A stretch of DNA of 64,000 nt, taken from Thermotoga profunda AZM34c06. GTDB lineage: Bacteria > Thermotogota > Thermotogae > Thermotogales > DSM-5069. The notes under the pieces were generated by a model. It saw only the letters and a list, made by a program, of their open reading frames with translations, made no database searches and was not told where the DNA came from. The stretch covers positions 2,065,413-2,129,412 of the forward strand of contig NZ_AP014510.1 of the NCBI RefSeq assembly GCF_000828675.1. The letters run 5' to 3'. The position numbers and the translations under genes are program-made. Positions 21,335 to 45,878 of this stretch are shown here, in pieces. The first letter of the stretch is position 1. Each line of letters starts with the position of its first letter.

Positions 21335-21394
21335 CAAAAAACTTGAAGGAAATCAAGATCGATATATTAAGATAAGAAAAGAGGAGGTTCAACA

Positions 21395-29001: not shown

Positions 29002-29880
29002 TCATAGTTTTGCAAGAAAATCACATAAAATATTTTCTTCCTTGTTCACATCTATACAAACAACATCAAGTTCCTCTTTTAGTTTTGTTACCACCTCTGA
29101 TATATCTATTTTCGAAAGCTGATATCCTTCAACTCGCCTTTCTGGATAACATGGATTGATTGTCACACACAGCAATTCAGGTTTTCTTTTTACAGCAATA
29201 TCCATCTTTTCTAACAATTCTTCCAATTTCTTATAATTGTCTGCGAGAATTAAATGTATTGGTGATTCCACCAACAAAGATTTATCTGAATTCGACTGCA
29301 GTTTTTCAACACTGACAAAGCCTGGTAGCGATACCCTGTTTTTGTCATCTGCCTTTGGTAATAGAAAGGCCTTGACCATTAACCTTGCTTCAGCGACAAG
29401 TTCATTTAAATTTATAGTTCTTGCAGCTCCAGTTGCTATAATTACATAATCCACATATTGAAAAGGCACCATTCTGTTTATAGCTCCATCAACCACCAAA
29501 AAATCTAATTCATAAGATTGAAGTTTTTTCAAAACACTAAAAAGATCGTCGCTCGAATTAGGACCAACAAGCACAACTGTCCCAAGTTCTTTTACTCTGT
29601 ACACGGATATACTTCCCATTGGAGTTTTAAGGGACAATCTCTCAAGTAATTCCATCTTTGCTGTCGAATGACGTGCCGCCTCTTCACTTGTTATCACCAA
29701 AGTCCCCTCATCAACGATGACCTTGGGCTTGGGTAATCCCGTAACATGATCAAGATCTTCACCATCAAAACCAATACTCGTTATCGCTAAATTTTTATTG
29801 TTCAAACACTTGAGAACGGCGTTCAATGCCGTTGTTTTACCAGTGTTTTTGGCCGTTCCAAGAATTCCAATGGTCAACAT
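29002..29880 (-). CDS. P-loop NTPase partner of B12-dependent mutase
   Basis: 292-aa soluble protein with Walker A GTAKNTGKTTALNAVL at the N-terminus and a hydrophobic Walker-B-like strand LDFLVVDGAINR. The fold class resembles MobB/CobB-type P-loop proteins rather than MeaB. Its ATG overlaps the stop of the large mutase subunit (7 nt), so it is very likely translationally coupled to it. By analogy with the accessory proteins that reload inactivated B12 enzymes, it may be a reactivation or cofactor chaperone; that is inference. It is the last gene of the island, ending 14 nt from the convergent MFS stop. Confidence 0.7.
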   Translation of the reverse strand: MLTIGILGTAKNTGKTTALNAVLKCLNNKNLAITSIGFDGEDLDHVTGLPKPKVIVDEGTLVITSEEAARHSTAKMELLERLSLKTPMGSISVYRVKELGTVVLVGPNSSDDLFSVLKKLQSYELDFLVVDGAINRMVPFQYVDYVIIATGAARTINLNELVAEARLMVKAFLLPKADDKNRVSLPGFVSVEKLQSNSDKSLLVESPIHLILADNYKKLEELLEKMDIAVKRKPELLCVTINPCYPERRVEGYQLSKIDISEVVTKLKEELDVVCIDVNKEENILCDFLAKL

Positions 29881-31652
29881 TTTTTCACCGTTCCCCTGCC
29901 TGCTCTGCCTGGGTTTGCTCCTTCTTCTTTAGTTCCAAAGAAACCTTCGTACAATGAAGCCACAAAATCACCGCGTTCGGCAACCTTTTTTAAGGTATTG
30001 TAGATACCTTCTTTTATCATTTTCGCGTATTCAAGAGCTTGTTTCGTTGGCTCTATCCTTGTCTTTCCGAAAAACCTGAATGCATCGGCGATGGCTCTTA
30101 AACTATCTATTCTGGCAGAAGTCGTTATGGCACCTCGTGCATATGCTTCGTCCGTTGAAGATACAGTTATCGCGTCGAGCTCGAGCGACTTTCCAAGGGC
30201 TGCGTGAAGGGCTGTTGTCATAGCCGATTGTACCCTATCTTCTGTATGAGTCATAAAACCAATTGGTTCCCCAGGCCATATTGGAGCATCGATGATATCT
30301 CTCAAAGCCAATATCTTACCAACGTTATAATCCACATAATTATCTTCCATGTACTTATTTATAATGGCATCGGGCGAATAACAGAACAGCGGTTTTAAGA
30401 TAGGCTTCGCACCGAGCTTTACACCAAGATATGCCACGACAACCATTCCTGCAAATGCCTTTGGTGCAGGAACCCCCCCGAGTTCTTCGTTCGTCGGCAA
30501 ATCAAAGGGCATGTTGAACATCGCGGCGAGTTTTATAGAATAAAATCCATCTACAGTCAATCTCTCTGGATCTGTCCCGCCATTGAGTGAACCATAGACC
30601 ATGTTGATCTTTGTCAGATCAGCTCCAGCTTCATGTGCGAGTAGAACTGTTTCAGGAGTATTCACACCTCTATGTGCTCTGACACACCATAATGTTGAAT
30701 CACTCAAGGCAGATTTTATAAGTTTGAGATTTTCAAGAGTTATTATTGAACCGTCCTCTTCGTGCGCCAATAATCCTTCAAGTAATCCTTCACATCTTGC
30801 ACCCCAAGATGGATCAAAATGTAAAACTCCGTCTGCGCCCCATGCTTCACTGATTTTTATATGCATTGCATCCATGAATGGACATCCTGTACCATACTGC
30901 ACAAAGACCATAGGTTTTTCAGTAGTATGACGAAGTATCTTTGGTGCATAAGAAGTTTTTTTAATCAATTCGTTGAGCTTATCAATTTCTTCTTGTGTTA
31001 TTAACCTCACATGTTTTGGAGTGATCTTTTCTCTATAATAAGATCTGACAAGATCATCACACAGCTTTATATAATCATCCCAGAGATTTTCACCCCTTAG
31101 AATTCTTTCTCTGATCTTGGCTCTTTCGACTCCTGGGCTTGTTCTTTCAGACGCCCATTGAATTATCTGATCAGTTATCATCTCAAGAAGATCGATGAAT
31201 GCACTATCTTTGATCTGATAAGTATATCCTTGTGTAATATCTTTTTTGATTTTCTTTATTCTCTCTCCTTCTGTTGATAATTCTTTACCTTCGACATAAG
31301 CAACCACTTCTTCCCAACGTGTTTTTTCTCCAAAACCAGCATCATAACCAAGCTCTGCTGCCAATTCTTTGGTTATTGCCTTTCCACCTACAACAACTTT
31401 GCACTTTTTTCTCAATCCAGCTGCATCGACAAGATCTATGAACCTTCCCAAAAGTTCCGCAGCGTTGTAACCGAGTGTTCTACTAACCATTATGTAATCT
31501 GGCACTTCTTTTTGACATATCTCGATTATTTCCTCCATCTTCATATCTGGTGGCAACAAAATAGTATGATGACCTCTTTGGGAAAATTCTCTGTTTAGCA
31601 TTTTCACAGCAACATCATGAACAGGATCTAACGGTACAAGGACTATCTTCAT
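29874..31652 (-). CDS. Adenosylcobalamin-dependent aminomutase-like protein, large subunit
   Basis: 592 aa. Residues 1-110 form a base-off/His-on B12-binding Rossmann domain: D9, ligand H12, S57 and G89-G90, with the 45- and 28-residue spacings of the family. GKAITKELAAELGYDAGFG resembles lysine 5,6-aminomutase KamE. Residues about 220-570 look like the KamD/OraE TIM barrel (GADGVLHFDPSWG, CEGLLEGL, ASLYEGFFG). In KamE and OraE the lysine holding PLP lies 11 residues after the B12 histidine; here that residue is F23, and no lysine occurs between 18 and 37. The domain order (B12 first, barrel second) is also reversed relative to OraE. The reaction is unknown, probably a radical 1,2-shift on an amino acid. 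Confidence 0.75.
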   Translation of the reverse strand: MKIVLVPLDPVHDVAVKMLNREFSQRGHHTILLPPDMKMEEIIEICQKEVPDYIMVSRTLGYNAAELLGRFIDLVDAAGLRKKCKVVVGGKAITKELAAELGYDAGFGEKTRWEEVVAYVEGKELSTEGERIKKIKKDITQGYTYQIKDSAFIDLLEMITDQIIQWASERTSPGVERAKIRERILRGENLWDDYIKLCDDLVRSYYREKITPKHVRLITQEEIDKLNELIKKTSYAPKILRHTTEKPMVFVQYGTGCPFMDAMHIKISEAWGADGVLHFDPSWGARCEGLLEGLLAHEEDGSIITLENLKLIKSALSDSTLWCVRAHRGVNTPETVLLAHEAGADLTKINMVYGSLNGGTDPERLTVDGFYSIKLAAMFNMPFDLPTNEELGGVPAPKAFAGMVVVAYLGVKLGAKPILKPLFCYSPDAIINKYMEDNYVDYNVGKILALRDIIDAPIWPGEPIGFMTHTEDRVQSAMTTALHAALGKSLELDAITVSSTDEAYARGAITTSARIDSLRAIADAFRFFGKTRIEPTKQALEYAKMIKEGIYNTLKKVAERGDFVASLYEGFFGTKEEGANPGRAGRGTVKKC

Positions 31653-31879
31653 TTTTCATCGCCCCCATCTGCCCAACCATATCTATCACCAGGTCTGTAC
31701 ACATACGCTCTCAATCTAATCCTCGCAGCAAAACCATTGTGTTCGATGAATACCACATCGACATCCTTAAAGCCGAATGACTTCATCATCTGAATACCAA
31801 GATCCCTTGCCTTTTGCTCAGATTCTGCGAGCAATGTTGTTTCAACATCCACAGCATCTATAATATGTTTCTCAATCAT
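31649..31879 (-). CDS. Small subunit of the B12-dependent mutase (dimerisation-domain-like)
   Basis: 76 aa. The stretch SEQKARDLGIQMMKSFGFKD, then VDVVFIEHNGFAARIRLRAY, resembles the dimerisation segment that precedes the B12 domain in KamE and sits mid-protein in OraE. Here it is a free-standing gene whose TGA overlaps the ATG of the large subunit (ATGA), implying equimolar assembly. Resemblance is judged by eye and is weaker than for the large subunit. Confidence 0.6.
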   Translation of the reverse strand: MIEKHIIDAVDVETTLLAESEQKARDLGIQMMKSFGFKDVDVVFIEHNGFAARIRLRAYVYRPGDRYGWADGGDEK

Positions 31880-31888
31880 TCAATCACC

Positions 31889-32725
31889 TCACTCCTTCAA
31901 TGCATCTTCTAAAATATATCCCTGCGCTACAAATTTTGCATCACCCTCTAAATAAACATTCTTCAGAAAAGATGAAACCTTTTCAAATCCAACTTTTAAC
32001 TTTCCCCCTCTTGCTTTAACCAAAACCGGTGGATAAACTTTCGAAAGAAGATGAGATATCACACAAGAAGCAATCGAGCCAGTTCCACAAGCGAATGTTT
32101 CATCCTCGACACCACGTTCATAAGTTCTTACGATTATTTCATTCTTATCTGAGATCTTCACAAAATTCACATTTGTTCCTTTGGGGAAAACATTCAAATT
32201 GTACCTGACTTTTCTCCCAAGATCCCTTAACAAGTCGTCATTCATGGATTCAACATCTTCTCTATAAATAACTGCATGTGGAACACCCACGATTGCAAAA
32301 TGATATTCAATTTCGCCAAAACCAAAATCATTTTTTTGATTCAATTTGAATACATCTACGCTCAAATCCGGAAAAATCACTCGCACATTTTCCCCAACTA
32401 TTAAAGCCTCGTGTATACCTGAAATGGTTTCAAACTTCATTTTTTCTTTTGCAACACCCAAAAGATATGCAAATTTTGCTATGCATCGAGCGCCATTACC
32501 ACACATTTCACCTTCACTACCGTCTGAATTGAAATACCTCATTTTAAAATCTACTTTATCGGAATCTTCGAGAATCATCAAACCATCTGCGCCTATAGAT
32601 TTTCTCCTGCGACAAACCAGTCTCACAAATGTGGAAATCTCCAGATTCTTTAGAACACCTTTTCTATTGTCTATAACTATGAAATCATTACCAGCTCCAT
32701 TCATTTTCACAAATTCTATCTTCAT
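31889..32725 (-). CDS. dapF: Diaminopimelate epimerase
   Basis: PLP-independent two-cysteine epimerase interconverting LL- and meso-diaminopimelate. Both catalytic cysteines are in place: MCGNGARCIAKFA near residue 75 and FACGTGSIAS near 215. The N-terminus KMNGAGNDFIVID is canonical, and the 278-aa length is normal. The surrounding genes are catabolic in character rather than a lysine-biosynthesis operon. This may be a second, specialised copy acting on the island's substrate; whether another dapF exists elsewhere cannot be seen. ATG 32725 is preferred to TTG 32728. Confidence 0.93.
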   Translation of the reverse strand: MKIEFVKMNGAGNDFIVIDNRKGVLKNLEISTFVRLVCRRRKSIGADGLMILEDSDKVDFKMRYFNSDGSEGEMCGNGARCIAKFAYLLGVAKEKMKFETISGIHEALIVGENVRVIFPDLSVDVFKLNQKNDFGFGEIEYHFAIVGVPHAVIYREDVESMNDDLLRDLGRKVRYNLNVFPKGTNVNFVKISDKNEIIVRTYERGVEDETFACGTGSIASCVISHLLSKVYPPVLVKARGGKLKVGFEKVSSFLKNVYLEGDAKFVAQGYILEDALKE

Positions 32726-32754
32726 CAAAACTCTTCAACCTCCAATATCTAAAA

Positions 32755-33663
32755 TTACAATAACCTGCAAAGTAAATCATCTTTTTCACCACAAAGAAAA
32801 TCAATAACAGGTATTTCGAGTAATGTATAACATCCAGGCTTTTGTTTCAAAGTAGCTCTTGCCGCCCCAACCATCACCTGTGCAGTCGCTGCGGGATTGT
32901 TCACCCACATGTGAAATTCCATCCTTTGATTGCACACCTTGCCCGAAGTTCCTTTACGTTCTATCTTTACACAGTGCCCCATATCCACCAATTTACTTAC
33001 GTCATCTACTTGATTTATATGAAGCTCGTCATGTGAAAAATAAGGATCTTCCGCTATCTTCTTTGCAACATCTGCAAAATCATATCCTTCTTCTAATTGA
33101 ACATAAACAAGCCTTGAATGCATTCCCATACCCTTTGGGCAAGTAATAGAAATCGCATCTTTGACACCTTCAATACGTTTCACAGCCACGGTATGTCCCA
33201 TACTCATACCAGGTCCGAAATTTGTCCAGGTAATACCTTTTGGTGCTATCATCTCAAAAACTACTCTTATGATTGAATCAGAACCTGGATCCCAGCCAGC
33301 AGATATGATCGAGACAGAACCACTCTCCTTTGCAATACTATCAAGATCCTTCTTTAGTCTCAAAGCGCCTTCTGCACCATGGATATCGTAGGCATCAACA
33401 GTGTTTATACCTCTTTTTAAATACTGAGATGCAACACTTGGTACAGCTCTACTATCAATCGCTAAGATAGCCACATCGGGCTTGGTTAAGTCTTCAACAT
33501 TATCAGTCACTGGTATTTTCCTAAATTCTTCTCTGAGTGATTTAATTCTCTCTGGAATCTCCACTATGCCAACTAATTCCATATCTTCACTTTGAGAAAC
33601 ACAGTCAAAAACAGCATGTCCAACATTACCCATGCCAACGATTACAACTTTCGCTTTGTTCAT
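32755..33663 (-). CDS. ddh: meso-Diaminopimelate D-dehydrogenase
   Basis: NADP-dependent oxidative deamination of the D-centre of meso-diaminopimelate, reversible. The Rossmann motif VIVGMGNVGHAVFD starts the protein. The Ddh-specific segments are clear: NTVDAYDIHG, SAGWDPGSDSIIRV and NFGPGMSMGHTVAVKRI align by eye with the Corynebacterium enzyme. It is 302 aa versus 320-326 there. Some thermophile homologues oxidise other D-amino acids, so the substrate could be another D- or diamino acid. It is first after the C(UUCG)G hairpin and coupled to dapF and the mutase genes. Confidence 0.9.
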   Translation of the reverse strand: MNKAKVVIVGMGNVGHAVFDCVSQSEDMELVGIVEIPERIKSLREEFRKIPVTDNVEDLTKPDVAILAIDSRAVPSVASQYLKRGINTVDAYDIHGAEGALRLKKDLDSIAKESGSVSIISAGWDPGSDSIIRVVFEMIAPKGITWTNFGPGMSMGHTVAVKRIEGVKDAISITCPKGMGMHSRLVYVQLEEGYDFADVAKKIAEDPYFSHDELHINQVDDVSKLVDMGHCVKIERKGTSGKVCNQRMEFHMWVNNPAATAQVMVGAARATLKQKPGCYTLLEIPVIDFLCGEKDDLLCRLL

Positions 33664-33738: not shown

Positions 33739-35115
33739 TTACATGAGTATCATTGCCACTATCGTTGCCCCGATAAAACCAAGAATAACAGGTATAAAAT
33801 TCTTTCTCGCAATCTCTTCTGGTTTGGTCTTACAAACGGCTGCTACTGCGATCAAAGCCCATGGAACTATGGTCCCTCCACCAGTATTGACTGCTGTGAG
33901 TTGTCCAAGGGCTGCAAGAACAGACGATTTCACATTAGCTGCCGTCCCCAAACCACCTGCAAGAGTACCCATCAGCGGTAATCCGGAGAACCCTGAGCCA
34001 TCAAGACCAGTTATCGCACCAATTATAGCCTGCATTGGTGCAACTGCAAATCTGTTTAGAGGAACTTTCGCAGCAAGCGCATTGCTCAAATCAAAAAGTA
34101 GGGGTTTACCTGCACTTCCAAATATCTGAGTAGCGGGACCACCACCCATATAGAACAAGGCAGCAATAACAAAAACTGGAGCAAAGATCTTTACACCAAA
34201 CATGAACCCTTCTCTGAGAAAGTCAACACCAAGTTCAAGACCTTCTGATTTATATTGCATCAGAGTGAATACCAGCAATAACAGCGCGGCGGTACCACCA
34301 AGTAGTGCTGTAGCATCTCCACCACGAAGTTTCAAGACAAGCATAAGCACTATATCCAATAAGAAAGCCAATGTTACTACAACAGCTTCAGTTTTCGCAA
34401 AACTACTGTGTTCCACACTCTTACTTTTTACAACGCTTTCTCCAAAGATTTCTATATCCTTTTTGGGATCGTATCCTTTGTTTGCCTTCATCGTGAAGTA
34501 GTAAGTGAGAGGAATGGCAATTACAGCCCAGACAATGATCAAAGGAACCATTGAACTCATAACCGTTCCAACAGACAATCCTGCTGCCTTAGCTGTAAGT
34601 GTTGGTGCACCTTGAATAACAAAATCTGTGGTCAAAGATATTCCATAGGCGAACATGGCTATTGCCACTCCAGCTCCTACAGGAGACAGACCAGCACTGA
34701 CTGCAACAGGCACCAACAAACTTCCTATCAAAGCAACTGCCGGTGTTGGCCATATAAAGAGAGCAAGAACTGCCGTGATGATACCAACAAACCAGAATGC
34801 CGAATTTGGTCCTTTAATAGGTCTACCAAGAGTCCTTATTAACACAGCTGCGGCTCCACTTTTTTCCATTTGCTTAGAAAGAGCAACCATCAAGGAGATG
34901 ACCACAACGATACCCATCAATTCATTTGCTGTGACTACAATGGCATTAAAGACCGATTGAACAGCTCCTAAGAAAGATCCCGTCACTGCCCAACCAACAC
35001 ACAGAGCTCCGATGATACAAATCAGTGGAGTGTCTTTTCTCAAAAACATGGTCACGACGACTGCAATCATGAACAACAAGTACAACCAATGAGCCAATCC
35101 AAGCTCTACCGCCAT
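33739..35115 (-). CDS. IT-superfamily permease (GntP/NhaC-like)
   Basis: 458-aa integral membrane protein with about 12 hydrophobic segments arranged in two halves, with conserved FIWPTPAVALIGSLLVP and late GLDGSGFSGLPLMG segments. It resembles the gluconate/citrate/NhaC-type secondary carriers. Clostridial ornithine-fermentation clusters also carry an NhaC-like permease. The likely substrate is an amino acid or organic anion of the pathway, but this is not provable here. The ATG at 35115 is 15 nt from the flavoprotein stop. Confidence 0.75.
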   Translation of the reverse strand: MAVELGLAHWLYLLFMIAVVVTMFLRKDTPLICIIGALCVGWAVTGSFLGAVQSVFNAIVVTANELMGIVVVISLMVALSKQMEKSGAAAVLIRTLGRPIKGPNSAFWFVGIITAVLALFIWPTPAVALIGSLLVPVAVSAGLSPVGAGVAIAMFAYGISLTTDFVIQGAPTLTAKAAGLSVGTVMSSMVPLIIVWAVIAIPLTYYFTMKANKGYDPKKDIEIFGESVVKSKSVEHSSFAKTEAVVVTLAFLLDIVLMLVLKLRGGDATALLGGTAALLLLVFTLMQYKSEGLELGVDFLREGFMFGVKIFAPVFVIAALFYMGGGPATQIFGSAGKPLLFDLSNALAAKVPLNRFAVAPMQAIIGAITGLDGSGFSGLPLMGTLAGGLGTAANVKSSVLAALGQLTAVNTGGGTIVPWALIAVAAVCKTKPEEIARKNFIPVILGFIGATIVAMILM

Positions 35116-35130: not shown

Positions 35131-36423
35131 TCACACGAGTTTGGTGTTGAAAATCGACCTCAATCCAACTTTTTTCACTCTTTCCTTTATAACTGTGATA
35201 TTTGTTGTGTATAAATTTTTTTGACTCATTCTCTTGAAATAAATAGAACCAGAGAAGGTGTATTTGTATTGACGCCCTTCTTCTTTCTTCATTTCAGCTA
35301 TGACATGATTTACAAAATCTCCAACAGCAAGTTCATCTGGAAGCCTGAGGAGTTTTTCACCAAAAACTCGTCTGACTGCATTATGACCAGCCAATGTTCC
35401 AGAGACAATCGCTTCTGTGTGTCCTACCATTGCACCGGCCTTTTCACCGGCACAGAACAGATTATCCACAGGACCAATTGCTTGGAGCTCTGGTGTGCAA
35501 TTGGCAAAACCAAAATATCTCATTGAGTTACCTTTGCCACCAGCTATTGGATCTTCATACCTTGCTCTCTCCATACCAGGAACTTTTCTAAGTCTCTCAA
35601 GAGGGAAGAAAGGAGTCATCAATTTAACAGGACCTGTGTCAAGCAATACCAAATTTTCAATGAACTCTTCAAGTGCATACTGCTGGCATGCCTTCATGCT
35701 CAGAAGTTTTTCTTCCTCACGTACTTCGAGTGGCACTGGAACAAGTGCGGAACCTTTTTCTTCAAGTTCTCTAACAATCTCTGGAGCAACTGAATCCTTA
35801 CACAACTTGCAAGAGCCGCTCATTGCTCCTATACTACTGTTATCTGGTTTCTTCCCGATCCATTCTTCAACACCAACTTTGGTGGTTATGCTGATTCTTG
35901 GTCCAAAGCTGTGGCATCTGAGTATACACATCGCACAACCATTACCATATTTAGTGCAATTTGCAGGTACCGCTGAGGTCCCTGTTGCATCAACAAAGGC
36001 ATCTGCTTTAATTGGTTCAAGTCCTTCAACAACAACACAAGAAACTTTTTCACCTTCCTTTGCCACATCGATAACTCTGGCTTTTGTGAGAATTTGTACA
36101 CCGAGCTCTTTCAGATATTCCTTGACTGCAGGTTCGATTTTATAGACGTTGTACAAACTGGCATGTTTGTGCCCTGGAAACTCAACGTTTGTATGAGTTA
36201 CACAATTGTCCATAACAGAGAAAATATCTGCACCCATCTCAAGCATCTCTTCAGCCGCTGTGAATCTACCATTGTTTCTGAAGATTCCTCCAACCAGTCC
36301 TGTTCCCAAAAGCATATCTGTTCTCTCGAGCAATATTACTTCGGCACCAGCCTTGCGGGCAGATGCGGCTGCAGCACATCCACCCCAACCTCCTCCAACG
36401 ACAACTATCTTCGGAGCACGCAT
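35131..36423 (-). CDS. FAD-dependent oxidoreductase (GidA-like fold)
   Basis: 430 aa. The N-terminal FAD motif is VVVGGGWGGCAAAASARKAG, and the C-terminal FAD segment is NLFCAGEKAGAMVGHTEAIV, similar in layout to GidA/TrmFO-type flavoproteins. A cysteine-rich stretch (CAMCILRCHSFGP and later CKLCKD) could bind a metal or Fe-S centre. The substrate is unknown. It sits between the multi-subunit dehydrogenase genes and the permease, in the same tight operon. Confidence 0.8.
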   Translation of the reverse strand: MRAPKIVVVGGGWGGCAAAASARKAGAEVILLERTDMLLGTGLVGGIFRNNGRFTAAEEMLEMGADIFSVMDNCVTHTNVEFPGHKHASLYNVYKIEPAVKEYLKELGVQILTKARVIDVAKEGEKVSCVVVEGLEPIKADAFVDATGTSAVPANCTKYGNGCAMCILRCHSFGPRISITTKVGVEEWIGKKPDNSSIGAMSGSCKLCKDSVAPEIVRELEEKGSALVPVPLEVREEEKLLSMKACQQYALEEFIENLVLLDTGPVKLMTPFFPLERLRKVPGMERARYEDPIAGGKGNSMRYFGFANCTPELQAIGPVDNLFCAGEKAGAMVGHTEAIVSGTLAGHNAVRRVFGEKLLRLPDELAVGDFVNHVIAEMKKEEGRQYKYTFSGSIYFKRMSQKNLYTTNITVIKERVKKVGLRSIFNTKLV

Positions 36424-36427
36424 TCAA

Positions 36428-36709
36428 TCACCCCTTTCTTTTTGCATCACTTTCACTTAAAAGCCCCATTGGGATGGGTTTAACGGGTGGTCTAAATCTA
36501 CCTGGATTGAGTTTATCAATAGATACTTTAGTAATTTGCGATATCTCACGCAAAATGATCTCTCTACACCCACGTCCTTGACACGGACCCATACCCACCC
36601 TGAGCAATCTTTTTAACTCACTGATAGTTGTATGTCCAGATCTTATAGCTTCTCTAATCTCTTTCAGAGTTATTTCCTCACATCTACAAACGATGACCTC
36701 TTCATCCAT
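36428..36709 (-). CDS. BFD-like [2Fe-2S] subunit of amino-acid dehydrogenase
   Basis: 93 aa. IVCRCEEITLKEIREAI and the distal MGPCQGRGC give the C-x-C...C-x4-C pattern of bacterioferritin-associated-ferredoxin domains. In HcnB, opine oxidase and dye-linked proline dehydrogenases this domain is fused to or accompanies the FAD subunit. Here it is a separate gene overlapping the end of that subunit by 8 nt, so it is probably an electron-transfer subunit of the same complex. Confidence 0.85.
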   Translation of the reverse strand: MDEEVIVCRCEEITLKEIREAIRSGHTTISELKRLLRVGMGPCQGRGCREIILREISQITKVSIDKLNPGRFRPPVKPIPMGLLSESDAKRKG

Positions 36710-38354
36710 GGTTGATCACCCTGATTGACCTGATTTGCATTACCAAATCTCTTGGTACAACTACATGGACAACAAGTGTCTTATCTTTTTTTGGTTCTTG
36801 AACACGAATGACTTTCCCAATTGCCACTACTTCACCTTTCCTGTCAAGGCATTGAACTTCTTCATTTATGTTGGGTTTCGGAAGCATTTCATAAGGTAAT
36901 TTCATGATTGCCTTATTCTCTTCGATATGTGTTAAATCAACCACAAAACACGCCAACCCGGGACAAGACGCAACACAAAGCGCACATCCGGAACATTTTG
37001 AATAATCAATCTGTGGTAGATCATTTATATTTTCGAATGGTAAGATAGCCCCAGTTGGACAATTTGTATGGCACGGATCACATGGTATTGGTTGTGGACA
37101 CTCGATTATTGCAAGTCCGCCTTTTTTTCTGTCCCATAGTTCAAGTGGGGGTAGAACAGATTCAATCATATCTTCTGGTAAAATTCCGCTACAGAATTCT
37201 TCATTATATATTGTTTGTGACTGTACTTTGGTTTCTGCACAATACTGAATATTTATTGGTGGATTATCCAATTTGTGCAACAATACTTTTTTTACACCAT
37301 CTCTAATCTTGGAAGCGATCTCACCTCCACGCAAAAGATTAAGCTCATTCCAATATTCAACTAATTTTTGATTAAAGACAGACTCGTTGATTTTCCCAAG
37401 TGAATAAGCCACGGAAAGGCCCGCAATCTTTCCTTCAATCATCGCACTTGATGCTTCCTCTATCCCAGATGCATCACCAGCGACCCAGATGTCAGGGTGT
37501 GTTGTACGCATTGTTTCATCTCTCTTTGGGACATATCCAGAGAGTTCAGGAACATAATTCATTTCACAACCTGCCTGCCATAACAATTCACAAGTAGGAC
37601 TCAAACCAACCGCCAAGCATATAACATCACAGTCTATTCTCTTTTCCTCACCACACCATTCACCCTTTTGGTCTACTGCCTGAATTATTGCCCCTTCGAC
37701 CCACGATGTTCCCAATGCCCTTTTTATTGTGTGACGCAAATATATGGGTATTCCCAAGCGGCGGATTTTTGCAGCGTGTACCCAATATCCACCAACTCTT
37801 GGTGCGAATTCCACGATACCAGCCACTTCAACACCGGCCTGTAGAAGTTGATAGCTGACTATTAATCCAATGTTACCTGCGCCAATCATTAAAACGCGAT
37901 TACCTGGCACTACCCCGTAAACATTCATCAATGTTTGAACAGCTCCAGCGCCATAAATCCCAGGTAGATCATTACCGGGAAATGGTATGAGTTTTTCCAA
38001 GGCACCAGTCGCAACCACTACCTTTTCGGGATTTATTACGAAAAATTCTTGTTCCCCTGTCATGCAGGTTATGATCTTTTCATCTGTATAGTAACCCACC
38101 GCCGTTGTATTCAAGAAAAACTCTATATTATCCTTACTCATCAGTTGCTGTGTCAAGAGTTTTGCTATCTCTATTCCGCGAGTACCTGCAAATTCGTTGC
38201 TTGAACCGAAAAATTTATGTGTTTGTTTTACAAGTTGTCCACCCAAAGTCAGTGATTCGTCAACTAAGGTAACCTTGCACCCATATGAGGCAGCCTCTAT
38301 TGCTGCGCAGAGACCCGCTGGACCACCTCCTATGACTAAAACTTCAGTCTTCAT
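36702..38354 (-). CDS. FAD/NAD(P)-binding dehydrogenase subunit with ferredoxin domain (HcnB-like)
   Basis: 550 aa. FAD motif VLVIGGGPAGLCAAIEA and a second dinucleotide motif VLMIGAGNIGLIVSYQL mark a pyridine-nucleotide-disulphide-oxidoreductase fold. The C-terminal third has cysteine clusters CDPCHTNCPTG and CSGCALCVASCPG, enough for one or two 4Fe-4S centres. This is the alpha subunit architecture of dye-linked L-proline/opine/D-amino-acid dehydrogenases. It probably passes electrons from the DAO-family subunit to ferredoxin or NAD. ATG 38354 follows AGGAGGTG; the preceding gene overlaps it by 11 nt. Confidence 0.88.
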   Translation of the reverse strand: MKTEVLVIGGGPAGLCAAIEAASYGCKVTLVDESLTLGGQLVKQTHKFFGSSNEFAGTRGIEIAKLLTQQLMSKDNIEFFLNTTAVGYYTDEKIITCMTGEQEFFVINPEKVVVATGALEKLIPFPGNDLPGIYGAGAVQTLMNVYGVVPGNRVLMIGAGNIGLIVSYQLLQAGVEVAGIVEFAPRVGGYWVHAAKIRRLGIPIYLRHTIKRALGTSWVEGAIIQAVDQKGEWCGEEKRIDCDVICLAVGLSPTCELLWQAGCEMNYVPELSGYVPKRDETMRTTHPDIWVAGDASGIEEASSAMIEGKIAGLSVAYSLGKINESVFNQKLVEYWNELNLLRGGEIASKIRDGVKKVLLHKLDNPPINIQYCAETKVQSQTIYNEEFCSGILPEDMIESVLPPLELWDRKKGGLAIIECPQPIPCDPCHTNCPTGAILPFENINDLPQIDYSKCSGCALCVASCPGLACFVVDLTHIEENKAIMKLPYEMLPKPNINEEVQCLDRKGEVVAIGKVIRVQEPKKDKTLVVHVVVPRDLVMQIRSIRVINHG

Positions 38355-38676
38355 GATCTTGCACCTCCTGCTGGAAAGTCCCTTTGCCACGTTGAGTTTT
38401 TATGACCATTCCTTCTTTTAGAGGAGTAATACATGAACGAATATTTGGAACACCATCAACTATTACAAAACATGAAGAACACTTACCTATTGCACAAAAG
38501 AAGCCTCTAGGCCTGTTGTATTTCTCGGTATAGCTCAGAATTCTTATACCGTTCGCATGCAAAGCAGCCGCTATGGGTTCTCCTTCGAAACCTTCCATTT
38601 CCTGGCCATCGAACGTGAATTTAACCTTTCTTCCGTGTCGATATTCCAGAATTGGATGCTGCCGGATTAGCCTCAT
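38344..38676 (-). CDS. [2Fe-2S] subunit of amino-acid dehydrogenase (HcnA/SoxA N-terminal-like)
   Basis: 110 aa. Cysteines in FFCAIGKCSSCFV and IRSCIT give the plant-type C-x4-C-x2-C-x(n)-C ferredoxin pattern of HcnA and of the SoxA N-terminal domain. It is coupled to the FAD subunit gene downstream and to the racemase-family gene upstream. ATG 38676 is preferred to GTG 38685. Confidence 0.87.
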   Translation of the reverse strand: MRLIRQHPILEYRHGRKVKFTFDGQEMEGFEGEPIAAALHANGIRILSYTEKYNRPRGFFCAIGKCSSCFVIVDGVPNIRSCITPLKEGMVIKTQRGKGTFQQEVQDHED

Positions 38677-38681
38677 CGTTA

Positions 38682-39404
38682 TCACCTCAAGATATCAAAA
38701 CCATTGAAATTAATGGTTGCGCTAACGAATTTTATTAAACTCACAACATCAAAAACAGGTAAACCTGTCTCCAATCTCACATCTTCTGCGAATGGTGGCA
38801 TATTGGTACACTCCAAAACAATTGCACCGACAGAAGGATCAGATGCCAGAATTTTGGCTTTGTTTATCATTTCTTTTCGAGCCAAATTCACGTCGATCTC
38901 CCATGAGTCATACAACAAAGCTTTCCCAAAATCTGTATCTTCGATCCCAACTTTGACAATATTTTTTTCTAAAGCACCCACAGCTTTAAAGTGTTTTTCA
39001 CTCAGAGCTTTACTATTTGCTGTTATCACTCCAACTTTTCGTGTTGATCCGATCATCTTGCTTACAATTGGTATCAAAATCAAAGCCGAACTGACAAATG
39101 GTACTTTCAAAACTGATGCAATTTCATCTTGAAAAAGCGATAAGAAGCCACAGGAAGTTGCTATAACTTTGACTCCACTGTTCTCAAGTTCTTTAGCCGC
39201 TTCAATGAATCTGCCTAAAAACGGCTCTGGATTATTTTCGATAATATTCTGGGGGTTGGCACCTTTTATTACTTCGTAAAGAACGGGGAAGTCCCAGGTC
39301 AAAGCATTACCTATATCGCCAGGTAATCTGGGAAAATGTGTCTCAAGCATTATCACACCAAGTTTAAAACCATAAATGTTTTTTCCGCCTTTAACAACTG
39401 ACAC
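38682..39404 (-). CDS. Asp/Glu/hydantoin racemase-superfamily protein
   Basis: 240-aa two-domain protein with paired catalytic-cysteine motifs VIATSCGFLS (about residue 85) and IVLECTNMPPF (about 200), diagnostic of PLP-independent amino-acid racemases. It could supply the D-enantiomer consumed by the dehydrogenase. Related proteins also act on arylmalonates or maleate. GTG 39404 is preceded by AGGAGG at 7 nt. It lies between the TRAP transporter and the dehydrogenase subunits. Confidence 0.82.
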   Translation of the reverse strand: MSVVKGGKNIYGFKLGVIMLETHFPRLPGDIGNALTWDFPVLYEVIKGANPQNIIENNPEPFLGRFIEAAKELENSGVKVIATSCGFLSLFQDEIASVLKVPFVSSALILIPIVSKMIGSTRKVGVITANSKALSEKHFKAVGALEKNIVKVGIEDTDFGKALLYDSWEIDVNLARKEMINKAKILASDPSVGAIVLECTNMPPFAEDVRLETGLPVFDVVSLIKFVSATINFNGFDILR

Positions 39405-39420
39405 CTGAGACCTCCTATCA

Positions 39421-41307
39421 TCATGCTTCTCTTTTCTTGATCAAGAATTTAGTCAAGGACATATACACAACCGCGACTATAAAAACAACTATTGCCAGAA
39501 TCTCTTTTGGAAATTTTGGCGTCGCTGTGGCCCAAACCGCCAAAGCAAGCACGAAAAACACGATAAATCTTTCATAAATGTTCAATTTTTTTCTGAAATA
39601 TCCCGCAACTCCCACTGCCAATAGGTAACTAATCAAAGACATAAGGATGACAATCGTCAAAATCTGCCAAACTGAACCTCTCATCAAAAGCGCATCGTTG
39701 TAAACAAAGATATAACCAACCAAATATCCCGTCAGACCAAGTTTCCAACTTTCGTAACCAACCTTCATAGGATCGGCTTTGGCTATAGATGCACCACAGT
39801 AAGATGCAACACATACAGGCGGGGTTACTTCAGATAATTTTGCAAAATACAGAGCAAATAGATGGGCTTTTAAAACATCCACACCCATTTTTAATAAGGC
39901 AGGCGCAGCTATTGTCACCGCAATGATATAGGCTGGTGTCGTTGGTAGTCCCATTCCCAATATCAAACATGTTACCATTACCAGAATCAATGCAAGTAAA
40001 AGCTTACCTCCTGCTAAACTCGTTATAACAGAAGCCAATCCCAATCCAAGGCCGGTGTAAGTTAGCACACTTACAACAATACCCGCGCCAGCACAGGCAA
40101 GAGCAACAATGATCATATTTTTCCCACTGGTCTCTAATGCCGAGATTATTCTTTTTGGTGTCATCATTGTTTCTTTCTTAAAAAAGCTGATTGCTATTGA
40201 AATCCAGATTGAGTAATAAGCTGCCATGAATGGAGAATAACCTTTAACCAGAAAATAAACCAAACCAACAGCTGGAGCAAGCAGATAACTTTCTTTGAGA
40301 ATCTTTTTCCATGATGGCAATTCTTCTTTTGGCAGACCCTTTAGTCCATCTCTAAGTGCAACAAGATGTACAGTAATACCTAAGGCAATATAATAGAAGA
40401 TAGCACCAAGTAAAGCCGCCAAACAAATTTTTACATAAGGAATATTAGTCAATTCTGACATTATAAATGCCGCAGCACCCATCACAGGCGGCATGAATAT
40501 TCCACCCGTGGATGCAACAGCTTCAACTGCACCAGCAAATTCAGGTTTATAACCCATCTTTTTCATCATGGGGATAGTAAAACTTCCAGTAGCATAAACG
40601 TTACTCGCCGCTATACCACTTATTGAACCAAACAATCCACTTCCTACAACCGCAATCTTTGCAGGACCACCAGGACCCTTTCCGGCTATACGTGCCGCTA
40701 CCATTGTCAAATAATTACCAACACCCGTTGATTCCAAAAAGGCACCAAAGATTACAAACATCGCAACTACAGTTGCAGATATTCCTGTGATGCTTCCATA
40801 GATACCGCTATCTGTTATCAAGTAAAACATCTCTACAAACCTACCAAGTTTCATTGGTTTGTTGTAAAAAATTCCAGGCAAATAAGGGGCAATATACACG
40901 TAGGCCATCATTGCTATCAATAAAATTGTCATTGCAGGAACAACGGCGCGTCTTATAGCTTCCAAAAGCAAAATTATGATAATAATCCCAAGAATTATTT
41001 GAGTGGTTGTCAGTGGATCTACACGCTCAAATCTCATATTCAGAGAATTGTTGTATATCATTAGATACAATGAAGGTATCGTTGACAAAATCGCTAAAGT
41101 GATATCAAGAACAGTGAACCTATCTTTCGGTGATTTTTTCGTTGCGGGGTAAAGAAGAAATGCCATGGGAAGTAATAAAAGCAAATGTGCTCCTCTTTGT
41201 AATCGTGGCTGTAATATTCCCACTGTTGCGGTATACAAATGAAATAGGGCGGTGGCAACAAGCCACACACCCACAACCCATCTCTGCCAACCTCTGAGTT
41301 CTCTCAT
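39421..41307 (-). CDS. TRAP transporter, fused membrane component (DctQM type)
   Basis: 628-aa polytopic protein with around 16-18 hydrophobic segments. The 4TM (DctQ) and 12TM (DctM) parts are fused, as in TAXI systems. Family pieces include GIAASNVYATGSFTIPMMKKMG and MGLPTTPAYIIAVTIAAPAL. It uses the sodium or proton gradient with the adjacent TAXI binding protein. The substrate is probably the amino acid degraded by this island. Confidence 0.93.
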   Translation of the reverse strand: MRELRGWQRWVVGVWLVATALFHLYTATVGILQPRLQRGAHLLLLLPMAFLLYPATKKSPKDRFTVLDITLAILSTIPSLYLMIYNNSLNMRFERVDPLTTTQIILGIIIIILLLEAIRRAVVPAMTILLIAMMAYVYIAPYLPGIFYNKPMKLGRFVEMFYLITDSGIYGSITGISATVVAMFVIFGAFLESTGVGNYLTMVAARIAGKGPGGPAKIAVVGSGLFGSISGIAASNVYATGSFTIPMMKKMGYKPEFAGAVEAVASTGGIFMPPVMGAAAFIMSELTNIPYVKICLAALLGAIFYYIALGITVHLVALRDGLKGLPKEELPSWKKILKESYLLAPAVGLVYFLVKGYSPFMAAYYSIWISIAISFFKKETMMTPKRIISALETSGKNMIIVALACAGAGIVVSVLTYTGLGLGLASVITSLAGGKLLLALILVMVTCLILGMGLPTTPAYIIAVTIAAPALLKMGVDVLKAHLFALYFAKLSEVTPPVCVASYCGASIAKADPMKVGYESWKLGLTGYLVGYIFVYNDALLMRGSVWQILTIVILMSLISYLLAVGVAGYFRKKLNIYERFIVFFVLALAVWATATPKFPKEILAIVVFIVAVVYMSLTKFLIKKREA

Positions 41308-41326
41308 CCGTGCACCAACTTTCCCA

Positions 41327-42334
41327 TCATTTCAAATATCCAGCTTCTCTGTAATACCTCTCTGCACCAGGATGCAATGGTACTGCGATATTCTTAGCAC
41401 CGTTCTCTGGTACAAAAGTTTTGTTGGCAGGATGAACGTTCCACAATTCTTGTAAATTCTCACATAATATTTTCGTAATGGTATAGGCAACTATCTCGGG
41501 TACATCTGCGTTGATTAACAACTCACCAGCTGTAACAACAGTGGGGACAGCATTATCCTGACCTTGGTATGTACCAGCTGGAATAACACAAAGGCCCGAA
41601 GAACGTGGAACTGTTCCTAATTCTCTACTCATTGCATCGATACAATCATCCGAAATAGAAAGTAATACAGATTTTCTGGAGATGAACATCTCTGTTACGG
41701 CTGATCCTGGAAGTGAAAGGTGTGTAGTCACAAAATCCACATGACGGTCCTTGTACAAACTTGTCATATCCGCATAAGTTGCATGGAAATATTCTCCACC
41801 TGCTTTCTTTATACTATCTAAAGTCACACCGTAGTATCCAAGTATGCGTTCTATTATTGGTAGATCTGAAGTCCCTTTCATTGGAACTGCTATTCTGACC
41901 GGTTTACCAGCTTTTATCATGTCTGCCAATTCTTTTACAGTAGATATACCCTTGTCAGCGCTCGCAATAAAGTGGATATGATAATAACCAAAATAACCAC
42001 CCAGTGATCTCACCTTGGGATTTGGTTTCTCGTACAGTGGTGGGACACCCAAAAGTGCCATCTTATCAACAAAAGTGATCCCCCATCCAAGATCTGCATC
42101 ACCGGACGACACCTGTACAGGGTTGACAACTCCTCCACCAGGGACAACCTTTATCGATATTTTAGGTTCTTTCTGATTTATGAGAGCAGCTATTGCTCCT
42201 GCCTGTGCATACCATCCACCACCAACACCACCAGCAACCCACGTCAAAGTCACTGGTTTCAATTCTTGAGCAATTCCAATTGTACTTACAAGGATACTTA
42301 AAGCAAGAATCAGAATGAAATTAGCCCTTTTCAC
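41327..42334 (-). CDS. TRAP transporter, TAXI-family solute-binding protein
   Basis: 335-aa extracytoplasmic receptor with a clean signal peptide ending near GIAQ. TAXI hallmarks are AGGVGGGWYAQAGAIAAL and ISIKVVPGGGVVNPVQVSSGDADLG. TAXI receptors are known for glutamate and glutamine in some bacteria. GTG 42334 has GGGAGG upstream. It is paired with the fused TRAP membrane gene 19 nt downstream. Confidence 0.94.
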   Translation of the reverse strand: MKRANFILILALSILVSTIGIAQELKPVTLTWVAGGVGGGWYAQAGAIAALINQKEPKISIKVVPGGGVVNPVQVSSGDADLGWGITFVDKMALLGVPPLYEKPNPKVRSLGGYFGYYHIHFIASADKGISTVKELADMIKAGKPVRIAVPMKGTSDLPIIERILGYYGVTLDSIKKAGGEYFHATYADMTSLYKDRHVDFVTTHLSLPGSAVTEMFISRKSVLLSISDDCIDAMSRELGTVPRSSGLCVIPAGTYQGQDNAVPTVVTAGELLINADVPEIVAYTITKILCENLQELWNVHPANKTFVPENGAKNIAVPLHPGAERYYREAGYLK

Positions 42335-42375
42335 TTGAAATCCCTCCCTTAGGATGCCAAATTCAAAGTAATTTT

Positions 42376-43566
42376 CTACTTGTTAACGATTCCTGAAGTT
42401 ATCTGAGAATAAAAGCGAGATGGACTGATTTCATCGATTTCAAACACTGGTTTTCTACCGCAAATCAAGTCTGAAACCAACTTTCCCGTTATTGGTGCAA
42501 GCGCTATTCCATCTCCTTCATGCCCTGTTGCAATGAAGAAACCTGAGTTAGAAGGATCTTCTCCTATGATATATTTGCCATCTTCACAAGCGGGTCTTAA
42601 ACCAGCAAATGATCTTATAATGCGCACTTTACTGAATATGGGAAACAATTCAACGGCTCTTCTTATTATGGCTTGCAAGGCTTCGTATGTTGTACTTTTG
42701 TTAAACCCGACATATTCTCTCGTACTACCTATGAGGTAATTACCACTGTGAGTCCTCGACATTGCAAAACCAAGGCCGAGTCTTTTTGAAATCTCGTCAC
42801 GATCAAAATGAGACAGATGTTTTGAAATGATGTAGTTTGCATCCCAGGCATCTGTTTCACCAATTTCCTCGATGGGTTCTGTCACGACAATCTGTCCCCG
42901 TTTGGGGCGTATTGGCAAGTTAAATCCCACAAGAGATGCCACTTTCCCAGACCAGACTCCGGCGGCATTCACTACAATGTGTGAGTTATAAGATTGGTTT
43001 GAAGAAGTTCTCACCTCCCAGAAATAAGAGTTTTTTCTAATCTCAACAACTTCCGCATTTCTTATGAGTTCAACACCAAGTTTGGCTGATTTTTTTAAAA
43101 GTGCAAATAAAACACGGAATGGATTAACCTGAGAATCATCCGGTGAGTATGTCGATGCTATCACGTTGTCATTTATCCAAGGCTGCTTCTTTTTGATCTG
43201 TTTCTTATCCAGTATTTCTACATTTAAACCTATAGACCTTTGTCTTTTGACGAAATCTTCCATAACAGGTATGTGCTCAGGTTTATCGATTAAAATCATA
43301 CCGCCACGTGTTGCAAACTCGATATCTTCTTCTAACTCACTTTGCCACTCCCGATATATCTCAAGACTTGACATGGCAAGTTTCAAAGGGAGTCCGGGTG
43401 CCTTAGATTGCAAGAGTATCATGTGATCACATGCGCCAGAAGTACCACTGCCTATATCATCCCGCTCGAGTACAAGTACACTTTTGTTTGATTTTGCAAG
43501 ATGATATGCACAAGAAAGGCCTATTATTCCCCCACCAATGACGATGCAATCATAACCTTTGAGCAC
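42376..43566 (-). CDS. DAO-family FAD dehydrogenase (HcnC/D-amino-acid dehydrogenase type)
   Basis: 396 aa, probable catalytic subunit that oxidises an amine or D-amino acid to the imine. FAD motif CIVIGGGIIGLSCAYHLAKS is followed by the DAO-family segments VNAAGVWSGKVA and GLRPACEDGKYIIGEDPS. The family includes glycine oxidase, sarcosine oxidase beta, HcnC and the catalytic subunit of proline/hydroxyproline dehydrogenases. With the HcnA-, HcnB- and BFD-like proteins it forms a complete four-part dehydrogenase. RidA upstream fits an imine product. Confidence 0.9.
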   Translation of the reverse strand: MLKGYDCIVIGGGIIGLSCAYHLAKSNKSVLVLERDDIGSGTSGACDHMILLQSKAPGLPLKLAMSSLEIYREWQSELEEDIEFATRGGMILIDKPEHIPVMEDFVKRQRSIGLNVEILDKKQIKKKQPWINDNVIASTYSPDDSQVNPFRVLFALLKKSAKLGVELIRNAEVVEIRKNSYFWEVRTSSNQSYNSHIVVNAAGVWSGKVASLVGFNLPIRPKRGQIVVTEPIEEIGETDAWDANYIISKHLSHFDRDEISKRLGLGFAMSRTHSGNYLIGSTREYVGFNKSTTYEALQAIIRRAVELFPIFSKVRIIRSFAGLRPACEDGKYIIGEDPSNSGFFIATGHEGDGIALAPITGKLVSDLICGRKPVFEIDEISPSRFYSQITSGIVNK

Positions 43567-43582: not shown

Positions 43583-45037
43583 TCAAATCAATCCTGAGTA
43601 TTTCGCAACGATTTCAATCAATCTCACAAGACCCCTTACGGCAAGTCTTGCTTTTTCTTCTATTACATCACCATTTTCATCGGTTGTACCAAGCCCCAGA
43701 GACACAAATATATTCGCATCATATGCAACTGTCTGTATTATTCCCATCACATCTGTACCAGATTGCAATATATTTGTTCCCGCATACATATCCTCAATCG
43801 AGAAAATTGGGAATGGTACACCTTTTTCCCAACAATCATCATAGTTTATTTCGACGGCTCCAGAATTGTAGCTCTTGGAAATCTTGAATATATGTTTTAT
43901 TTTACTATCAAGTTTAGAGAATTCTTCAACTGTTATTTCATATAACTTGTCAATACCTGCTTTGTACTTATCTGCCTTTTGTCTCAATGCCTTCAATGCC
44001 GCTATTGCCCCAGCAAGGGATTCTTTACCTGGGTCAAAGGTCACGTAAGCCGCTTTACCATATGAAGACCACGTACCACTTCGATCACCGTGTGTCCCCA
44101 TTGCTCGTCTGATAGGAACCATTACATCTTCGCGACCAATTATCAGACCGCAAGTGGGTGCTCCTGCCGCTTTATCCATACTATAAGTCATAACCCACGC
44201 GCCAGTCTTTCTTGGATCTGTCCCTATAAATGGAACACCCCAGGCATTATCAACGATGTATGGAACATTGTAATACTGTGCAAGCTCACCAATTTTCTTC
44301 TGAAGTATGGGGGTACCATCTTTGTCTTTTTCACCGTATCCGTATCCAACTGTGTCGTATCCAAGTGATGAGAAACCAGCTAAAGTATCAGCATATCTTT
44401 CGGCGTATTCCTTGATTTTATCTGCCGTGCCCTGTGCATCAACACCGCTGAGTAAGATAACAGGGTGATACTTTATGCCGTGAACTGGATACCTTCCTCC
44501 TGCCATTGGGACGATCACTACATCGACATTTTCAAGTCTCTTTCCATAGAAACCAAGTTCCCCGGCGGTACAACCTCTGTCTGCAAAGATGTCTTTATAC
44601 TGAGGCGGAATAGGTCTCCCATAACCACCGTGGTGGTGAAGATGTCTTTCATATGGTATGATGTATCTACTTCTGTACTTGTCACCTCTTCCTGTGAATG
44701 GTGGTGAAACAAGAACATCAAAACTTAACCACAGTGCTGCTTCACATGTACTCACAAGCAATGCATCATAATCATCTCCATAGTAATCTTTGACAATATC
44801 TCTGATTTCATCTGCAAAAACTTTGTTTGGGATCACTTCTCTTGCAACCTTGCTGATGGCCTCATCTACTTCTTTCGTTATCAACCCATGACAACCAGAT
44901 ATTGCACCAGTTAGCCCAAACTTACCGCGCCATTCCTGAGGTATACCTATTTCGTCCGCCGCCTTTTTGGCTTCTTCAAAGATCTTTGGCATTGATTGCT
45001 TCAGATGCCTGTAAAGATGATACTTGTTCTTAAACAT
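43583..45037 (-). CDS. Fold-type I PLP-dependent enzyme, function unassigned
   Basis: 484 aa. VDNAWGVPF supplies the PLP-ring aspartate and TYSMDKAAGAPTCGLIIG the Schiff-base lysine, the arrangement of class V-like aminotransferases, lyases and SelA/SepSecS-type enzymes. Distinctive stretches include YERHLHHHGGYGRPIP and RRAMGTHGDRSGTWSSYGKA. I cannot place it in a named family. It overlaps no gene but sits 16 nt after the unknown 144-aa gene. A carbon-carbon or carbon-nitrogen lyase in the pathway is conceivable. Confidence 0.75.
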   Translation of the reverse strand: MFKNKYHLYRHLKQSMPKIFEEAKKAADEIGIPQEWRGKFGLTGAISGCHGLITKEVDEAISKVAREVIPNKVFADEIRDIVKDYYGDDYDALLVSTCEAALWLSFDVLVSPPFTGRGDKYRSRYIIPYERHLHHHGGYGRPIPPQYKDIFADRGCTAGELGFYGKRLENVDVVIVPMAGGRYPVHGIKYHPVILLSGVDAQGTADKIKEYAERYADTLAGFSSLGYDTVGYGYGEKDKDGTPILQKKIGELAQYYNVPYIVDNAWGVPFIGTDPRKTGAWVMTYSMDKAAGAPTCGLIIGREDVMVPIRRAMGTHGDRSGTWSSYGKAAYVTFDPGKESLAGAIAALKALRQKADKYKAGIDKLYEITVEEFSKLDSKIKHIFKISKSYNSGAVEINYDDCWEKGVPFPIFSIEDMYAGTNILQSGTDVMGIIQTVAYDANIFVSLGLGTTDENGDVIEEKARLAVRGLVRLIEIVAKYSGLI

Positions 45038-45053: not shown

Positions 45054-45488
45054 TCAGTCTCTCGTAAAATAGATCAAATCATTTAGACTCAAATTCATTT
45101 CTTCGCCAGATATAAGTTGTTCTGTGAAGATAACGATATTCTGATGATTTGGCATGTGAGTCTCATCAAAACCTGCCAATGTACCAATGCATTTTCCATT
45201 AGAGAGTTTCACCTTGTCTTTAAAAACAATCACACCAGGGTTTATGATCTCCACAAAAGCAAGATAAGCTATTTTGTTCACATTTTTTCCAGGAGCGGCA
45301 TCTTTTTCATCTGTTAGAATCAATTCGTGTATTTCACCATTTTTCAAAGCTCTCGACCACGGAGATATCAAAGATAAATTCCTGTTTTCCATCTTTCCGC
45401 GAAGTACCGCTACAATCCTTCCTACAACAGTTGTCTTTTTAGCATATGGATCGTTTTTAACCATTCCAGATGCATAAGGATCTATCAT
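45054..45488 (-). CDS. Unknown 144-aa protein, conserved context
   Basis: No signal peptide or membrane segment. It is a mixed alpha/beta sequence with segments such as VVGRIVAVLRGKMENRNLSL and IGTLAGFDETHMPNHQNIVI. I do not recognise the family. It lies 6 nt after RidA and 16 nt before the PLP enzyme, and could be its partner subunit. The ATG at 45488 has AAGGAG upstream. Confidence 0.72.
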   Translation of the reverse strand: MIDPYASGMVKNDPYAKKTTVVGRIVAVLRGKMENRNLSLISPWSRALKNGEIHELILTDEKDAAPGKNVNKIAYLAFVEIINPGVIVFKDKVKLSNGKCIGTLAGFDETHMPNHQNIVIFTEQLISGEEMNLSLNDLIYFTRD

Positions 45489-45494: not shown

Positions 45495-45878
45495 TCACTC
45501 CTTGGCAGCTATAACTTCAATTTCAACTTGTGCACCTTTTGGTAAACCCGCAACCTGAACAAAAGATCTCGCTGGTTTGTGTTCGCCAAAATATTGGCTG
45601 TATATCTCATTGACTGCCGCAAAGTTGGATAAATCTGTCACGAAAACCGTGGCTTTCACCACATTTTTGAGATCACAACCACTTGCTTTGAGAATCGCTC
45701 TGATATTTTCAAAAACTCTTGCGGTTTGTTTTTTAATGTCGCCATTCACCAGTTCACCAGTTGCCGGATCGAGTGGAATCTGCCCAGAGACAAAAATAAA
45801 TCCATTAGCTTCAATTCCTTGAGAATATGGACCTATCGCCTTTGGCGCTTGATCTGTACTGATTGTTTTCACAGTCAT
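45495..45878 (-). CDS. ridA: RidA family enamine/imine deaminase
   Basis: 127 aa. Hydrolyses reactive enamines and imines released by PLP enzymes and flavin amino-acid oxidases, protecting PLP enzymes. The family signatures [27 protein letters not shown] and the catalytic Arg in [21 protein letters not shown] are present. ATG 45878 follows AAAGGAGG; a 36-residue in-frame extension upstream overlaps the regulator and is rejected. Its presence supports imine intermediates in the island. Confidence 0.94.

Follow-up and report, generated by a model that had tools for sequence, protein, structure and literature searches.

The window analysed here is a stretch of 64,000 nucleotides (bases 2065413–2129412) of the complete 2,187,612-base genome of Thermotoga profunda AZM34c06, a member of the Thermotogota (G000; other G and L numbers denote comparison genomes and fetched loci). 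Five genes, all on the minus strand and together covering positions 29002–33663 of the window, encode a meso-diaminopimelate (DAP) dehydrogenase (Ddh), a DapF-type DAP epimerase, a small protein of 76 residues, a B12 mutase of 592 residues and a P-loop protein (Table 1). The P-loop and mutase genes overlap by 7 nt and the mutase and small genes by 4 nt; spacers of 9 and 26 nt separate the small gene from dapF and dapF from ddh. Positions, overlaps and profile matches agree with an earlier note on this DNA, in which five coupled genes of these families had been recognized and taken as the unit. The five-gene set is real, but it forms the 3′-terminal part of a longer operon of catabolic appearance that runs from a YheO-type regulator at 46557 down to 29002, and ddh is adjacent in only three of the nine genomes that carry the mutase.

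The mutase was compared with lysine 5,6-aminomutase (KamDE) and ornithine 4,5-aminomutase (OraSE) by profile alignment with hhalign, in which unrelated pairs scored E values of 0.02–0.4. The N-terminal B12 domain (residues 1–125) matched KamE (E 1.2e-15) and scored 42 bits against PF02310, over the cut-off, a helical stretch (about residues 149–180) matched OraS (E 1.5e-4) and a triose-phosphate isomerase (TIM) barrel (about residues 244–590) matched KamD (E 4.4e-5 over 314 columns). The 76-residue subunit matched the N-terminal dimerization domain of KamE (E 8e-6) and, below threshold, PF16554 (OAM_dimer; E 0.057). The B12 domain retains the axial histidine (His12) and the GG motif; its DxHxxG motif reads PVHDVA (D and G differ). 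An AlphaFold model of the mutase [predicted local distance difference test score (pLDDT) 60, predicted template-modelling score (pTM) 0.60] retrieved KamD first in Foldseek (8t0v_A, 7e-12; 1xrs_A, 2e-11; 9q1a), followed by glutamate mutase and then OraE. The enzyme is not a member of the lysine 5,6-aminomutase equivalogs NF052384 and NF052385 (no match to the alpha profile; 53 of 280 bits for the beta profile). Judged by these matches, it belongs to the lysine 5,6-/ornithine 4,5-aminomutase superfamily, as the earlier note had proposed, as a variant with a third domain order. KamDE consists of an OraS-like–TIM chain plus a dimerization–B12 chain, and OraSE of OraS plus a TIM–dimerization–B12 chain; the order here is a dimerization subunit plus a B12–OraS-like–TIM chain. 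The gene arrangement is observed directly and appears to be a third assembly of the parts of the known enzymes, in which the small subunit and residues 149–180 are putative domain equivalents on short, moderate matches.

Two other assignments of the mutase were rejected. It is not the glutamate mutase subunit GlmE, as the barrel gave no PF06368 (Met_asp_mut_E) match and no Pfam match at E 10. It is also not a member of a second, uncharacterized B12 protein family that is widespread in Thermotogota (541–553 residues, B12 domain plus GlmE-like TIM barrel, no NCBIfam equivalog): the B12 domains align and the barrels do not. The gene for this second protein lies outside the window in G000 (L108:315-3969; G000:C1:2010815-2014469) with the same order in L109–L112 and L116; its neighbours are a gene resembling NAD(P)-binding opine/glycerol-3-phosphate dehydrogenases and, at most of the loci, an ATP-grasp gene like those for d-Ala-d-Ala ligases.

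In lysine 5,6-aminomutase, pyridoxal 5′-phosphate (PLP) is held by Lys144 (aldimine), Ser238 (ring nitrogen), Tyr263 (stacking), Asn299 (hydroxyl), Arg184, Arg268 and Ser189 (phosphate) and Tyr236 (PMC3958899). These positions were compared in a MAFFT alignment of nine KamD and seven OraE sequences with the nine mutases. Arg184, Ser189, Tyr236, Ser238, Tyr263, Arg268 and Asn299 are conserved in all 16 KamD and OraE sequences. In all nine mutases Arg184 is replaced by Asp280, Arg268 by Gly358, Ser189 by Ala285 and Asn299 by Glu389, and gaps stand at Tyr236 and Ser238. The Schiff-base lysine (KamE Lys144, OraE Lys629) is present in 16 of 16 KamE and OraE sequences and is Phe or Leu in every mutase. 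Seven of the eight known PLP contacts, this lysine among them, are thus lost throughout, and the stacking tyrosine (as Tyr353) is the sole contact retained. Lys370 and Asp298 of KamD, which we take to be active-site positions, are replaced as well. As the nine mutases are few and similar, little can be concluded from invariance among them; what carries the argument is the set of positions conserved in the sister families.

The earlier note had drawn a parallel to clostridial ornithine fermentation, and on the level of mechanism this is not supported: the PLP site, kept by every KamD, KamE and OraE compared, is missing from the mutase. The enzyme is predicted to depend on adenosylcobalamin (AdoCbl) without using PLP in the manner of its known relatives, and from its sequence it probably works without PLP altogether; as the contacts are lost, it is doubtful whether it carries out a PLP-type 1,2-amino shift. 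Chemically, a radical step without PLP is easiest on a substrate whose reacting end bears an α-amino acid group. This holds for glutamate in glutamate mutase and for both ends of DAP. That the mutase should nevertheless be a conventional PLP/AdoCbl aminomutase acting on d-lysine, d-ornithine or DAP, with the PLP lysine located elsewhere, is improbable. Clear homology to KamD and KamE, the retained stacking tyrosine and a KamB-like partner would suit such an enzyme; the replaced contacts in all nine homologues, including the Schiff-base lysine, and the replaced Lys370 and Asp298 argue against it, as does the fact that G000 already has a canonical lysine 5,6-aminomutase (KamD 830 bits, KamE 356 bits; L032:5006-7314, G000:C1:1965006-1967314).

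The P-loop protein scored 201 bits against NF052386 (KamB; cut-off 210), and its gene lies directly 3′ of the mutase gene in all nine genomes. By this resemblance it is a probable AdoCbl-mutase reactivase rather than an enzyme of the pathway in which the earlier note had included it. With KamDE and KamB/KamC the present system shares the TIM-barrel fold, a B12 Rossmann domain with conserved histidine, a small domain of the dimerization type and the KamB-like P-loop partner; it differs in the free dimerization-like subunit and B12–TIM fusion, the lost PLP site, the other gene company and the fact that no KamC relative was seen in the cluster. The OraSE operon (ord-ortA-ortB-oraS-oraE) is alike in its two-subunit mutase, fermentation-like layout, dehydrogenase and PLP enzyme, whereas OraE has TIM–dimerization–B12 order and a PLP site. 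As relatives of OrtA and OrtB, respectively, the DUF6917 protein and the 484-residue PLP enzyme of the operon were ruled out (hhalign probability 0.2% for each). Glutamate mutase GlmES likewise has an AdoCbl TIM barrel without PLP and was the second structural match, but the present mutase is closer to KamD/KamE in sequence and subunit make-up.

Full-length mutase homologues were found in nine of 103 Thermotogota genomes including G000, within one family and three genera; those in the eight other genomes are 76–93% identical and keep their neighbours. The core comprises ten genes, encoding the YheO regulator, RidA, DUF6917 protein, PLP enzyme, flavin adenine dinucleotide (FAD) enzyme, transporter, DapF, small subunit, mutase and KamB-like reactivase. 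The small gene, dapF, the FAD-enzyme and transporter genes and the KamB-like gene are kept with the mutase in all nine (the contig of L027, from G010, ends before the FAD enzyme), and the four upstream genes are syntenic wherever the fetched stretch reaches them. A divergent LUD–M20–OAD set accompanies the conserved upstream part. G004, an incomplete genome (71%), carries the first six cluster genes up to a contig end, a truncated tenth copy, and the 484-residue PLP enzyme occurs in exactly the nine mutase genomes and G004. The gene set is therefore real and conserved and not a chance association. The search for occurrences outside the Thermotogota, a single scan of 84,980 species with two strict peptide patterns that would miss distant relatives, gave only three Pseudothermotoga-type loci.

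DapF scored 241 bits against TIGR00652 (cut-off 115), below the cut-off for the bifunctional DapF/glutamate racemase; both catalytic cysteine motifs are kept and one usual asparagine position is valine (GVPH). It is the only PF01678 protein in G000, and in each of the nine mutase genomes the only dapF lies in the cluster, in G006 relocated and more divergent; G002, a related species without the cluster, has a short, low-scoring dapF instead. Ddh matched 3wb9 (E 1e-99) with the type II conserved motifs intact. A ddh gene is present in all nine mutase genomes and in none of the other 94 genomes of the phylum, so that the mutase, whose regular occurrence without dapF and ddh would by the earlier note have spoken against its reading, was never seen without dapF or without a ddh in the genome. 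DapB is absent from seven of the nine, G000 among them; G000 also has no dapA over the cut-off, and lysA exceeds its cut-off in all nine. As the seven cannot make tetrahydrodipicolinate without dapB, Ddh is hardly biosynthetic there and meso-DAP must come from outside. A sole dapF, combined with an inactive mutase, would also have spoken against the note's reading; the gene is indeed the only copy in G000, but is not thereby biosynthetic because dapB is missing. That the set serves biosynthesis, yielding a modified diamino acid as a wall component or a solute, is very unlikely: DapF and Ddh are familiar chiefly from the synthesis of lysine and the cell wall, and seven of the nine genomes have LysA without dapB, yet the operon also contains a regulator, a transporter, RidA and an oxidoreductase, and most carriers lack the steps that make DAP, which is in keeping with uptake and breakdown. 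In L121:3437-7293 (G000:C1:19437-23293) lysA adjoins an ATP-binding cassette (ABC) importer of the ABC_sub_bind (PF04392) type, as if LysA used imported DAP in this genome without dapB.

In genera g3 and g4, ddh heads an operon whose other genes encode a peptide-binding protein of family 5, two permeases and two ATPases, as well as a secreted NlpC/P60 peptidase that has SH3 domains of the YkfC type. The orthologous operon of G000 (binding protein 71–83%, permeases 72–90% and peptidase 54–59% identical) has no ddh at its head; the gene sits in the mutase operon. YkfC-type peptidases cleave the γ-d-Glu–diamino acid bond of wall peptides, and Bacillus uses muropeptides through a YkfABC/Dpp-type system, which is alike in its YkfC-like peptidase and peptide ABC importer. 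What sets the arrangement here apart is the link to Ddh and, by way of the different position of ddh, to the B12 operon. That ddh is tied to the muropeptide operon in some genera and to the mutase operon in another is the strongest functional link found. Together with the absence of dapB and the co-occurrence, it favours DAP among the diamino acids that the earlier note had considered, and we regard it as evenly balanced whether DAP or a direct derivative is the substrate. Alternatively, the operon could degrade another amino acid (for instance glutamate, 2-aminoadipate or a d-amino acid); DapF would then be its racemase, the mutase a glutamate mutase-like enzyme, and Ddh and DAP incidental. 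The absence of a PLP site as in glutamate mutase, the second fold match, the non-DAP racemases among DapF relatives (e.g. the O-ureidoserine racemase 7vdy) and the position of ddh outside the core in six genomes would accommodate this; we consider it unlikely, given a DapF score far above the DapF cut-off and below that of the bifunctional enzyme, and a Ddh that tracks the mutase exactly and in g1 sits in its operon instead of heading the muropeptide operon. At window positions 18020–22300, a DapA/NAL-family lyase gene (180 bits, below the dapA cut-off) stands in a row with amino-acid-type ABC transporter genes and an aminotransferase; several g3 genomes likewise have a DapA-family gene, some 12 kb away from ddh.

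Table 1. Features of the mutase operon (positions in the window).
Feature	Positions	Strand	Basis
KamB-like P-loop protein, probable AdoCbl-mutase reactivase	29002..29880	-	NF052386 reactivase_KamB, E 2.4e-59
B12 mutase large subunit, 592 aa	29874..31652	-	PF02310, hhalign, Foldseek
Small subunit, 76 aa, like KamE/OraE dimerization domain as a free protein	31649..31879	-	hhalign, sub-threshold PF16554
DapF-type DAP epimerase	31889..32728	-	TIGR00652, 241 bits (cut-off 115)
meso-DAP dehydrogenase, type II (Symbiobacterium-like)	32755..33663	-	TIGR01921, 283 bits (cut-off 181)
Conserved membrane transporter	33739..35115	-	Kept adjoining core genes in mutase clusters
FAD-dependent oxidoreductase, GidA/FAD_oxidored type, core gene	35131..36423	-	PF01134, 99 bits; 83–93% identity in relatives
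Genus g1-only insert	36428..43566	-	Absent between PLP enzyme and FAD gene of L025, L026, L028–L030
PLP enzyme, SelA/DgaE-like class V fold, 484 aa, core gene	43583..45037	-	Weak DgaE/SelA match, E 3e-5
DUF6917 protein, core gene	45054..45488	-	PF21891 on L030 homologue; syntenic in all clusters reaching it
RidA family enamine/imine deaminase	45495..45878	-	TIGR00004, 189 bits
YheO-type transcriptional regulator	45886..46557	-	PF08348/PF13309 on homologue; synteny

No family was recognized for the transporter, which gave no match to Pfam and NCBIfam profiles, and a fold model of the DUF6917 protein (pLDDT 81) gave no PDB match. The g1 insert contains Fer2/BFD, an FAD oxidoreductase, a 2Fe–2S subunit, an Asp/Glu racemase, a TRAP-TAXI transporter and DAO and SoxA-like flavoproteins, and resembles a separate dehydrogenase system for amino or imino acids. 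Elsewhere in the window (52538–56529) an HMGL-like synthase, a sodium:solute symporter with C-terminal winged-helix domains and a PF04199 cyclase follow one another; it is unusual for a symporter to carry fused DNA-binding-like domains.

The locus is probably a catabolic B12 operon for an amino acid. More specifically, and tentatively, since we judge it slightly short of evenly balanced, it would serve the import and fermentation of DAP scavenged from peptidoglycan peptides, via a probably PLP-independent AdoCbl rearrangement. The substrate, the direction and every reaction of this route we infer as follows. The secreted YkfC-like NlpC/P60 peptidase and the peptide importer of the other operon would supply DAP, and DapF and Ddh would fix its stereochemistry or oxidation state. 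The AdoCbl-dependent mutase, kept active by the KamB-like reactivase, would then rearrange DAP or its 2-amino-6-oxo form. Because the PLP site is gone, it would probably work like glutamate mutase, with the radical stabilized by the α-amino acid group of the substrate itself. Candidate reactions are the migration of the glycyl part of DAP as in glutamate mutase, that of an acyl group in 2-amino-6-oxopimelate, or that of an amine with no help from PLP. Breakdown of the product would then fall to the FAD enzyme, to the PLP enzyme together with the DUF6917 protein, and to RidA, in general terms by oxidation, carbon-bond or ammonia cleavage and imine hydrolysis.

Several points weigh against DAP fermentation by a PLP-free mutase. 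The whole case is comparative and drawn from one Thermotogota family. The co-occurrence of mutase and ddh is largely confined to one clade, with one same-genus exception (G002), and so is partly phylogenetic. Only in genus g1 does ddh adjoin the mutase set, and it could be biosynthetic in G006 and G007, which retain dapA–dapB. The fold model of the mutase is of medium quality, and the enzyme may have a PLP site of another design. The KamDE genes of G000 have no kamB or kamC beside them, and the KamB-like protein might serve KamDE instead. Finally, no proposed step accounts for the FAD enzyme, the PLP enzyme or the DUF6917 protein.

In the open-access literature, of which the coverage was incomplete, no described pathway of DAP catabolism or fermentation, no link between a mutase and Ddh and nothing relevant on KamB/KamC reactivation or DUF6917 was found. 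It is possible, if somewhat less likely than the operon function proposed above, that the locus encodes a previously unknown fermentation of DAP by PLP-independent AdoCbl rearrangement, in which a domain-shuffled member of the lysine/ornithine aminomutase superfamily carries out a reaction without described counterpart, either an amine shift that needs no PLP or a carbon rearrangement of the glutamate mutase kind. The KamDE/OraSE enzymes known so far depend on B12 together with PLP; a natural enzyme of this group that has no PLP site would reveal how the radical step can proceed without PLP and would represent a new B12 reaction. It would also point to functions for the DUF6917 protein, the 484-residue PLP enzyme and the transporter. 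If the substrate is DAP, the operon would allow an abundant amino acid of the cell wall to be fermented. The joining of an unusual B12 enzyme to DAP genes in a conserved ten-gene set suggests a so far unknown way of living on cell-wall debris in heat-loving Pseudothermotoga.

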